NCBI GenBank assembly: GCA_022821275.1
Contig: JAJEDY010000060.1
Coordinates: 1-64,000 of the forward strand
Length of the DNA: 64,000 nt
Direction: 5' to 3'
From: Candidatus Latescibacterota bacterium
Lineage (GTDB): Bacteria; Latescibacterota; UBA2968
This document shows positions 17,467-20,946 of the stretch, piece by piece. Position numbers and translations under genes: made by a program. The notes under the pieces were generated by a model. The model was not told where the DNA came from. It made no database searches and saw nothing but the letters and a program-made list of their open reading frames with translations. The stretch's first letter is position 1, and each line of letters starts with the position of its first letter.

Positions 17467-17497
17467 AAAAATGGCGTTGAGATAAAAAGAAATGCAA

Positions 17498-17529
17498 CCG
17501 CAGAACACAGAATGTTCTGCGGTTTTTTT
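17498..17529. terminator. Bidirectional terminator between moaE and the GH172-type gene
   Basis: CCGCAGAACA, loop CAGAA, TGTTCTGCGG, followed by TTTTTTT on the plus strand. It separates convergent genes. Confidence 0.9.
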
Positions 17530-18955
17530 ATTTCCTGTGCAATGCGGCGTGAAAAGTCCAGAGACGCCATTGGGCATTGTCGAAATTTGAGAGTTTAATT
17601 CGTATCTCAGAAGGCCCAGACGGGAGATTACAGGAGATGTGGTCAACGGCAAATCCATTGTCATGTTCCCCTGCATAGACCTCCTCACCATTGATCCACA
17701 CGCGAATCCAGTCGTCATAACCGATGGCGAGAGTGTACGCTCCTGCTTCGGGCGGGGTGATTTGTCCCACTGCATAAGCCGAGACATTGGCGGGTTGGGT
17801 ACCGACATTGGTGCGTTTGCGACCGCGAAGGTGCCGTGTGAAATCGCACCAGCCGCGTTCGGAATCCGCTTGAATGGGCATTGAAAATGTGGTGGGCGCA
17901 TTATCACCCATGTAGATGTCAAAATCAGCGGTATGTACATCGGGCCAATCCGAGACAGATTTCTCAGCCCATTCGGACCGATTGAAATCTTCGCGTGTAT
18001 TACAGGGCAAAGGGCCCGCGATTTGCCATTGGGATGGCGTAAGAATGGACGGAGATTCGGCGGGATTGACATAAGCGTAGATAACACTTTCCAGATCATT
18101 ACCGCGGGACCCGAAACGAATAATAGCCGAATGATCAAACCATATGGGATCGGGGCCAAAAAATCGGTACATCACACCTTCATAACCAGAGCCGCCCGAT
18201 GTGTGTTCAGTACTCCGATGGATATGCGGCGCACCGACCCAATCGGTTTGTACCTTCCATATCCCAAAGCTCATATTGAAAATATCCTCACCCCCAATGC
18301 CGCGCAGGGCATGGGGATCGCTTTCCCCATCGAGCAACCACAGGTCTCCGCCAGTGTGATACCAGGCATCAGCGCGATCCCTTACGACCACGCCTTTGAC
18401 CATGCCCGCGATAAATCCACTACCCGAATAATCGGCCATCAGCATACTGCCCAGCGATTGGGCGGGATACTCGCCGCTGTGCGTGACCTGGAGACGCAAT
18501 GGGGTTAATTCGGCATTGTCATAAGACGACCAATCGGCCATGAACCAGAGCGGAATAGCGCGATCACTATTATTCGTGATTTCGAGACGCAGGGATTTAA
18601 AAGGAATGGGCAAATAACAATTGAGCGCGTTTTTGGGAAGGATTTTGATAGCCGCGCTATCAATGGGATAAATATCGTGTTCAAAGAGAATGGCGAAAAA
18701 ACGGGCGAGGGGGAGATCGACAATGGGATCGTCCCCCCCATCGCAATAGAGGCAAAGTTGCAAATCGTGAATGGGATCGCGCGCATCGCCTTCGCGCTTA
18801 TACCCATAAGTGAGCCACCAGTGATGGATACAACCAGGACCTTCTTCGTCAAATAGAACAGCCGTTTCGCCAGGAGCCACACTGGGACGACGGGTAACGC
18901 GCTGACTTTTGCCGCGAATGGGCAATTCGAGTTCTGCGTGAAAAAGGCGGTTCAT
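17528..18955 (-). CDS. DUF2961 (GH172-type) protein with C-terminal beta-sandwich
   Basis: About 475 residues. The N-terminal two thirds match the DUF2961 jelly-roll fold, reclassified as glycoside hydrolase family 172: EEGPGCIHHWWLTYG, a GEDIFNMSFG motif, and YRFFGPDPIWFDHSAIIRFG. Characterised GH172 enzymes release difructose dianhydride I or alpha-fructofuranose/alpha-arabinofuranose residues. The last 150 residues (AGPLPCNTREDF...GYDDWIRVWINGEEVY) resemble a PA14/galactose-binding-like sandwich. No signal peptide is seen. ATG 18955 is used; a TTG at 18970 overlaps the stop of the small upstream membrane peptide (TTGA) and could be the coupled start. It is the last gene of an nhaC-led unit. 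The substrate is unknown. Confidence 0.8.
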   Translation of the reverse strand: MNRLFHAELELPIRGKSQRVTRRPSVAPGETAVLFDEEGPGCIHHWWLTYGYKREGDARDPIHDLQLCLYCDGGDDPIVDLPLARFFAILFEHDIYPIDSAAIKILPKNALNCYLPIPFKSLRLEITNNSDRAIPLWFMADWSSYDNAELTPLRLQVTHSGEYPAQSLGSMLMADYSGSGFIAGMVKGVVVRDRADAWYHTGGDLWLLDGESDPHALRGIGGEDIFNMSFGIWKVQTDWVGAPHIHRSTEHTSGGSGYEGVMYRFFGPDPIWFDHSAIIRFGSRGNDLESVIYAYVNPAESPSILTPSQWQIAGPLPCNTREDFNRSEWAEKSVSDWPDVHTADFDIYMGDNAPTTFSMPIQADSERGWCDFTRHLRGRKRTNVGTQPANVSAYAVGQITPPEAGAYTLAIGYDDWIRVWINGEEVYAGEHDNGFAVDHISCNLPSGPSEIRIKLSNFDNAQWRLWTFHAALHRK

Positions 18956-18966
18956 CACTGAATTTT

Positions 18967-19059
18967 TCAATCAGATTTGTGTTCCGAAGAAATAACGATA
19001 AAACCAATGACGAACAGAGTCACTATAAACGTCATAAACAGAATCATTCCAACAGGCAT
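18967..19059 (-). CDS. 30-residue single-pass membrane peptide next to NhaC
   Basis: A tiny ORF below usual length cut-offs: MPVGMILFMTFIVTLFVIGF, then six more residues and a polar tail SEHKSD... of the 30-residue total. It has a perfect AGGAGG (19066-19071) six bases before the ATG, the best ribosome site in the neighbourhood. Residues 4-24 form one transmembrane helix with a short charged C-terminus. It starts 41 bp after nhaC and its stop overlaps a possible TTG start of the GH172-type gene. Small one-helix accessory subunits are known for sodium-coupled SSS and NSS/MetS transporters. By analogy this may be a small subunit or regulator of the antiporter; that is inference. Confidence 0.7.
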   Translation of the reverse strand: MPVGMILFMTFIVTLFVIGFIVISSEHKSD

Positions 19060-19100
19060 TGTGTGCCTCCTTTTGGCTTAATGAATAGTAAAAAATCCCA

Positions 19101-20825
19101 TTACGCTGTGAAGAAAGCGACGACGGTCCAGCAGATTGCGGCGAGGCCAGCGGCGATAGAGGCTTGTGGGATTTGCGTTTTGACGTGATCCATCAGGTCG
19201 CAACCCGTACACATAGAACTCAGAACCGTAGTATCTGAAATAGGCGAGCACTGATCGCCGTAAACGCTACCATCTATAACAGCGGCAAAACACAGCGTCA
19301 TAAAAAGTTCGGGATGTGACAGGCCATTTGCCGTTGCGACCGCCCAGGCCAGTGGCATAGCCAGCGGAAAAGCCACCGCATACGTGCCCCAACTCGTACC
19401 TGTGGAAAAGGCAATCGCCATCGTGAGAATTTGTAGCAGAACCGGCAAAATGAAGTATGGAATGGTATCCCCGAGTTGCTCAACTAAGAAGATGCCCCCA
19501 CCCGTTTCCTTACTGACACCGCCAATGGTGATAGCGAGCAAGAGAATAACCGAGCCGAGCACCACACCTTTGAGACCATCGTGAAAACCAGCGACAATGT
19601 CTTTGAGAGACATGCCTTTGGCGAGCGCCATGCCCACGGCTAAAAGAAGCGCGATGCCAAAAGCCCATTGCACATTGGGGGATCCACTGGTGATAAAAGT
19701 CCCAATAGCGATGGCGATAAGCACGCCCAGAGGCAAGAAAAACTCGAGAACATGCGGCGTGTAGCCTTCGGGCACATTGCTTCCCTGCAATTCTTTGGCA
19801 CTCAAGGGATCGGCATCATCGGCATCGAGTTGGCCCGTCTCTCGAGAGCGTTGCATAGCCTCCTTGAGTTGCTTGCCCAAAAAGAGGGGTTTTTCAATAC
19901 TGAGCAAGAACGTGCCCAACACGGCGAAAATAGCATAGAAACAAAATGGAACGCTTTTAAAAAAGAAGAGAAGGCGGAGTTCTTCAGTGGCTAAAAAGCT
20001 GACGCCAGCGACGAAGATAAAATCCTGAACATAGAGAGGCCAGGCATTAAAAGCGAGTTGTGAGGCAATCGGTGAAGCGGTTGAATCAACGATGTAGGCA
20101 AGTTCCTCGTGGCTAATCTTTTCCTTGTCGGCAATGGGTTTGACAGTTGTACCGACCAGCACCGTACTGACTGTGCCGCCCTGGAAGAAGATGACACCGA
20201 GCATCCAGGCGACGAGTTTGGCACTTTTGGGGCCTCGGACAAAATGCGCGGTCATATACTCGGCAAAAGCTTGCGCTGCACCCGTACGCGACCATATCCC
20301 CATAAGCCCACCCAGGAGCCACAAATAGAGCAATAAGATACTCGCGGCATTTGAGGTCGCCAATGAGGGGACTAAAACCTCGCCTGTAAAGTCATATCGC
20401 GTCAAAATAAGCGCACCCGAAATAATACCACCCAAAAGAGCTGTGACGGGTTCTTTGGTAATCCAGCACAAAAGCACAGCCACCACCGCGGGCAGCAATG
20501 ACCAATAGCCCCAGTGGTGTTTTGCAAGGAGTTGTTTGTATTTTGTTTCTCCGTTTTCTACAAATGAGACAAATTCCTCTTTGATGGGAGGCGTTTCATT
20601 CGAGCCATGTATCTTTGAAGGATTGAGTTGCGCTTGTTCAAGCGGCACCGCATCGAAATACGCGGGTTTGCCTCTGTAGATATAATACATCTGACCACTC
20701 TCGTCCGCATGCACATCCAGAGTGATTTGTTCAACAGTCCATGTAGCTGGCACAGTTAATCCCACAATCCACGATACGATTATGGCGACGACAAAAATGA
20801 CGAAGTTTCGAATCCCTGTAGGCAT
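19101..20825 (-). CDS. nhaC: NhaC-family Na+/H+ antiporter
   Basis: 574 residues from ATG 20825, which follows CGGAGGAAGTTT; a longer frame to 20960 lacks a ribosome site and starts with a non-membrane stretch. About 11-12 hydrophobic helices plus an N-terminal periplasmic-type insertion (residues 30-105). Family features are [18 protein letters not shown], the [16 protein letters not shown] segment, [18 protein letters not shown] and [18 protein letters not shown]. NhaC proteins exchange sodium (or organic acids such as malate/lactate in relatives) for protons at the inner membrane. Substrate direction cannot be told from sequence. It is the first gene of a unit with a small membrane peptide and a GH172-type protein. 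Confidence 0.9.
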
Positions 20826-20946
20826 AAACTTCCTCCGGAATAAGGGTATAAAAACACGGGGAGAAGGTGTCCAAAAATAAGGTGGTAAAATACACTTGTC
20901 AATTGCTTTGGTACAGGATGGGCAAGGGAAAATGAGATAAAACAAG

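Follow-up and report, generated by a model that had tools for sequence, protein, structure and literature searches.

We identified a 30-codon gene for a single-helix membrane peptide, MPVGMILFMTFIVTLFVIGFIVISSEHKSD (18967..19059, minus strand), located 3' of a gene for an NhaC-family transporter in the window, by which we mean the whole 64-kb stretch of DNA analysed. On the evidence of its open frame, its orthologues within one genus of sponge-associated Latescibacterota, their pN/pS and an AlphaFold2-predicted helix, this is a genuine protein gene under purifying selection. As to its role, we tentatively favour, at a little below an even chance, a single-helix accessory to the neighbouring transporter, or modulator of it, that is specific to this lineage. 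More loosely held is the narrower possibility of a recent invention within one genus, namely a single-helix subunit dedicated to an NhaC-family sodium carrier.

The peptide reading frame extends on the minus strand from an ATG at 19059 to a TGA at 18969-18967 and encodes 30 amino acids, with the Shine-Dalgarno sequence AGGAGG (19066..19071, minus strand) placed 6 nt 5' of the start codon. The initial annotation had described a 30-residue, one-helix open reading frame at 18967-19059, an AGGAGG six bases 5' of its ATG and a position between nhaC and a GH172-type gene; the re-derived coordinates, the predicted helix, and the PF03553 and PF11175 assignments of the two neighbours bear this out. A spacer of 41 nt (19060..19100, minus strand) separates the peptide ATG from the stop codon of the nhaC-family gene (19101..20825, minus strand; ATG 20825, stop 19101), which encodes 574 residues. 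No terminator was predicted on the minus strand in this spacer of the window.

On the other side, the GH172-type DUF2961 gene (17528..18949, minus strand; PF11175, E 2.7e-24) begins 17 nt after the peptide stop. Its preferred start is ATG 18949. It had also been noted that the peptide stop overlaps a possible next start, and a TTG at 18970-18968 does overlap it, although as a start for the GH172 gene this alternative is poorer than ATG 18949. Since the GH172 gene has no Shine-Dalgarno sequence of its own, its translation is probably dependent on coupling to that of the peptide. A terminator-like hairpin 3' of the GH172 gene (17496..17524), usable from both strands, is likely the end of the nhaC-peptide-GH172 unit, and a promoter-like TTGACA-17-TATTTT element (20874..20902, minus strand), which is a consensus match only, is found 5' of nhaC. 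This gene layout suggests that the three genes share one transcript.

To assess whether the reading frame is real, we examined both its expected frequency and its pattern of substitution. When the 64 kb was scanned for ATG-initiated frames that span 20-60 codons, carry AGGAG or GGAGG and encode a strongly hydrophobic helix, the peptide frame was the sole match, while ten order-3 Markov randomisations of the window gave two matches in all, or ∼0.2 expected per 64 kb. Across nine distinct sequences the pooled pN/pS of the peptide is 0.19, and in the same genomes the values for nhaC and the GH172 gene are 0.09 and 0.13. Variation is present at the second position of one codon of 30 and at the third position of 17 of 30. 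Nonsynonymous changes account for 14 of 35, and so few were never obtained in 20,000 random placements, a test that ignores phylogeny. No length change shifts the frame (+12 nt in genome G002, +3 nt in G001 and G006), and the GGAG of the ribosome site is retained in all ten peptide orthologues. Invariant positions of the peptide include P2, G4, F8, T10, F11 and G19. The initial annotation had staked the gene on recurrence of the frame after nhaC in close relatives and on a substitution ratio indicating coding constraint; the frame is conserved in 10 of the 11 genus genomes, and neither a lack of conservation nor a lack of constraint was found.

Profile and single-sequence searches recovered the peptide, always as a single copy, from these 10 of the 11 sampled genomes of the genus. 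The remaining genome, G003, has an assembly gap at this locus: tsaD starts 162 bases from a contig end, and the nhaC orthologue and moaE are missing too. The contigs carrying orthologues derive from metagenome-assembled genomes of Latescibacterota, one relative being filed as Gemmatimonadota. Sponge-associated Latescibacterota have been described (PMC12993501). A search of 64 genomes from the phylum found the peptide in this genus alone.

Outside the genus, we scanned downstream of ∼70 NhaC orthologues (53-84% identical, from many phyla) over 400 nt under a strong criterion and over ∼1 kb under a loose one, and found no convincing comparable reading frame. The few loose hits are far downstream, on the opposite strand or without a proper start; one, at L111, has a TTG or GTG start ∼200 nt downstream and a weak ribosome site. 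An NhaC paralogue in the same genome (L087:3008-4951, plus strand) likewise has no such small frame directly 3' of it. The peptide is therefore not a general NhaC subunit, and this candidate was rejected (0 of ∼70 orthologues). No relative of the peptide was present in viral contigs or in plasmids, and a viral or plasmid origin was rejected on these grounds.

The neighbourhood of the peptide varies within the genus. In all ten peptide-bearing genomes nhaC shares the strand of the peptide at a distance of at most 2.6 kb, and in seven of the ten the peptide starts 37-41 nt after it. The gap is enlarged by insertions of 0.6-2.5 kb in the remaining three (G002, G007 and G008), where the inserted genes are all co-directional with both nhaC and the peptide. 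In G002 and G007 the insert pairs a DUF4258 gene (PF14076) with a short gene of ∼80 codons, an arrangement reminiscent of a toxin-antitoxin system. This pair occupies L068:5892-6451 (minus strand) and about 6150-6700 of L067 (minus strand), and G009, to which G007 is most closely related, does not have it. The insert of G008 measures 2.5 kb and contains an HSDR_N gene and short frames (L069:7420-9499, plus strand, with a type I restriction R N-terminal gene and three unnamed frames), and the gap also holds a fragment similar to the short gene that accompanies DUF4258 in G002 and G007. In this genome the peptide is still found with nhaC, though tsaD is ∼37 kb away and the 2.5 kb has been inserted.

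The nhaC tree shows three separate losses of the GH172 gene, in G005, G009 and G008; in each case a scar made up of its first codons remains and the peptide has been retained. The losses in G005 and G009 are recent. In G008 the scar is well preserved although nhaC has diverged from that of other members by a dS above 1.1, which suggests that this loss is not ancient either. The peptide is therefore separable from GH172, which does not imply long maintenance without it. We rejected GH172 as a requirement for the peptide, given three losses through which the peptide stayed; the GH172 neighbour is dispensable to the peptide and the adjacency is incidental. The GH172-type gene, for which losses number at least three, is itself genus-restricted, its next best match having 37% identity.

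AlphaFold2 predicts the peptide to be one continuous helix over residues 3-28 (pLDDT 92). Its N-terminus is uncharged and its tail, SSEHKSD, is of mixed character. Pfam holds no family for the peptide, with the best score at 15.7 bits against a cut-off of 29.4 (Orf78), and neither NCBIfam nor PADLOC gave a match. The best PHROGs hit, to a family of unknown function, had an E-value of 0.0007 over 16 hydrophobic residues, and searching the PDB returned only a 13-residue chance match to the photosystem II I protein. PF16951 is absent from the Pfam hits of every orthologue and from the genome as a whole, while the Corynebacterium glutamicum control was positive. A MetS-type NSS small subunit was accordingly rejected, the neighbour being a PF03553 Na_H_antiporter and not an NSS carrier. 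Membership of KdpF was also rejected, as no KdpF profile matched in Pfam or NCBIfam and the neighbours are nhaC and GH172, not kdpABC.

The neighbouring transporter scores 110.7 bits against PF03553 (cut-off 23; E 1.1e-31) and 45.6 bits against the TIGR00931 NhaC equivalog, below the cut-off of 370. Its AlphaFold2 model (pLDDT 82) has a predicted N-terminal helix, an extracytoplasmic β domain and an ion-transporter-superfamily core. The closest fold in the PDB is the solved structure of MleN (9a59, E 2.5e-08), an NhaC-family malate carrier, followed by INDY-type carriers. The N-terminal helix and the β domain (residues 28-104) precede the transporter core and are conserved across phyla. NhaC orthologues without an adjacent peptide align collinearly with NhaC from end to end, and the idea that the peptide is a split-off piece of the transporter was rejected.

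How might the peptide serve this transporter? In the accessory model, which offers the most economical mechanism, the nhaC message would also be read from the strong ribosome site of the peptide frame, and the product would insert into the membrane as one helix and pack against the transporter. There it might modulate stability or activity, in either direction, by analogy with KdpF and AcrZ. Consistent with this model are the co-directional linkage to nhaC in every peptide-bearing genome, the 37-41 nt spacing in seven of ten with a terminator-free spacer, the persistence of the peptide beyond GH172 in all three loss lineages, a weak in-register likeness to the NhaC N-terminal helix, and the precedent of the 30-residue KdpF. 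Against it stand the ∼70 outside orthologues and the same-genome paralogue, which do without the peptide, so the NhaC family does not need it, and the foreign genes that separate nhaC from the peptide in three genomes. Moreover, adjacency in one genus is weak evidence of function because gene order is inherited. The accessory role put forward in the initial annotation therefore keeps the nhaC linkage in all ten genomes and the dispensability of GH172, but loses any extension beyond the genus. The same annotation knew of no small accessory described for NhaC, and our search of the literature, largely of open-access papers, likewise found none linking NhaC with a small membrane partner. To our knowledge, this would be the first such subunit for the family.

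The strongest competing explanation, a serious possibility that still falls well below even, is that this small membrane peptide acts on something other than NhaC, having arisen or landed after nhaC in the ancestor of the genus; it could target a sensor, a different membrane protein or the membrane as such, or be a type I toxin-like peptide. Such an origin fits a peptide that is found in one genus while NhaC is widespread, that is apart from nhaC in three of ten genomes and that is unlike any known transporter subunit. It fits less well with the genus genomes, in which the peptide was never seen away from nhaC or duplicated. In the toxin version, a hydrophobic peptide would be accompanied by a hidden ribosome site and an antisense RNA; the peptide is hydrophobic, but its 5' mRNA has no unusual structure that would hide the ribosome site (z -0.84 and +1.29), inheritance is vertical and single-copy, and PADLOC gives no match. 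We place partnership with the transporter no higher because the shared position is mostly inheritance, and a peptide with another target would look alike.

It is unlikely that the frame acts only as a leader that feeds ribosomes to GH172 by translational coupling, with the peptide itself unimportant. This would account for a GH172 ATG 17 nt beyond the peptide stop that lacks a Shine-Dalgarno sequence while that of the peptide is near-perfect, and for the confinement of both genes to the genus. However, third codon positions vary freely without loss of amino-acid conservation, and the peptide is intact in the three lineages without GH172, though those losses are recent or, in G008, apparently not ancient. 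Coupling to GH172 may instead be a side effect of peptide translation.

One variant of the accessory model would make the peptide a duplicated NhaC N-terminal helix that mimics the original helix or competes with it. This is very unlikely, even though the sequence likeness is suggestive of a duplicate of NhaC helix 1. NhaC residues 1-25 are the best of ∼550 ungapped windows, in register, with a score of 35 against 17 for the next independent window (shuffle P 0.0014), and the N-terminal helix is the best of 25 segments tried by profile. Conversely, 8 of 200 profile shuffles score at least as high, the DNA identity of 35/75 has no clear margin over other windows, and the likeness is lower in G002 and G008. 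A chance reading frame without function, for which a length of just 30 codons and the lack of any described family might be argued, is highly improbable and is already contradicted by the pN/pS of 0.19, the exclusively in-frame indels, the ribosome site retained in all ten genomes and the low expected number of such frames.

Routine annotation readily overlooks a gene of 30 codons, and here comparative evidence alone shows one to be real. If the peptide does serve NhaC, control by a small helix would extend to another transporter superfamily, and such subunits could arise in one genus while transporters >80% identical do without. Peptide-bearing and peptide-less transporters offer a clean comparison for what a one-helix subunit adds.

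Several known systems invite comparison. KdpF has 30 residues, is co-transcribed with its transporter and is thought to stabilise KdpFABC (PMC3618439). The peptide described here has a similar length (∼30 residues), one helix and a gene beside a transporter gene; it differs in having no Pfam or NCBIfam match, in its candidate partner, an NhaC-family carrier in place of a P-type ATPase, in its genus-restricted distribution, and in gene order, as kdpF lies 5' of its transporter genes whereas the peptide gene lies 3' of nhaC. AcrZ is a single transmembrane helix that modulates the AcrB efflux pump from a groove in the membrane (PMC7267776). The single helix is shared, with the modulating role an analogy, while sequence, length and partner differ. 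AcrZ is encoded away from acrB. MetS (MaAIMP_sms, PF16951) is the small subunit of the MetP NSS transporter, encoded by the gene pair metP-metPS (PMC3219685), and resembles our case as a small gene adjoining that of a sodium-coupled transporter; in contrast, PF16951 is absent from this genome and NhaC is not an NSS carrier. Cytochrome bd oxidase has a comparable short one-helix subunit, CydX, in which many substitutions are tolerated (PMC6005532), but which is unrelated in sequence and partner. The peptide thus appears analogous, rather than related, to KdpF, AcrZ and MetS, and is a genus-specific member of the broad kind of single-helix membrane peptides encoded beside transporters.
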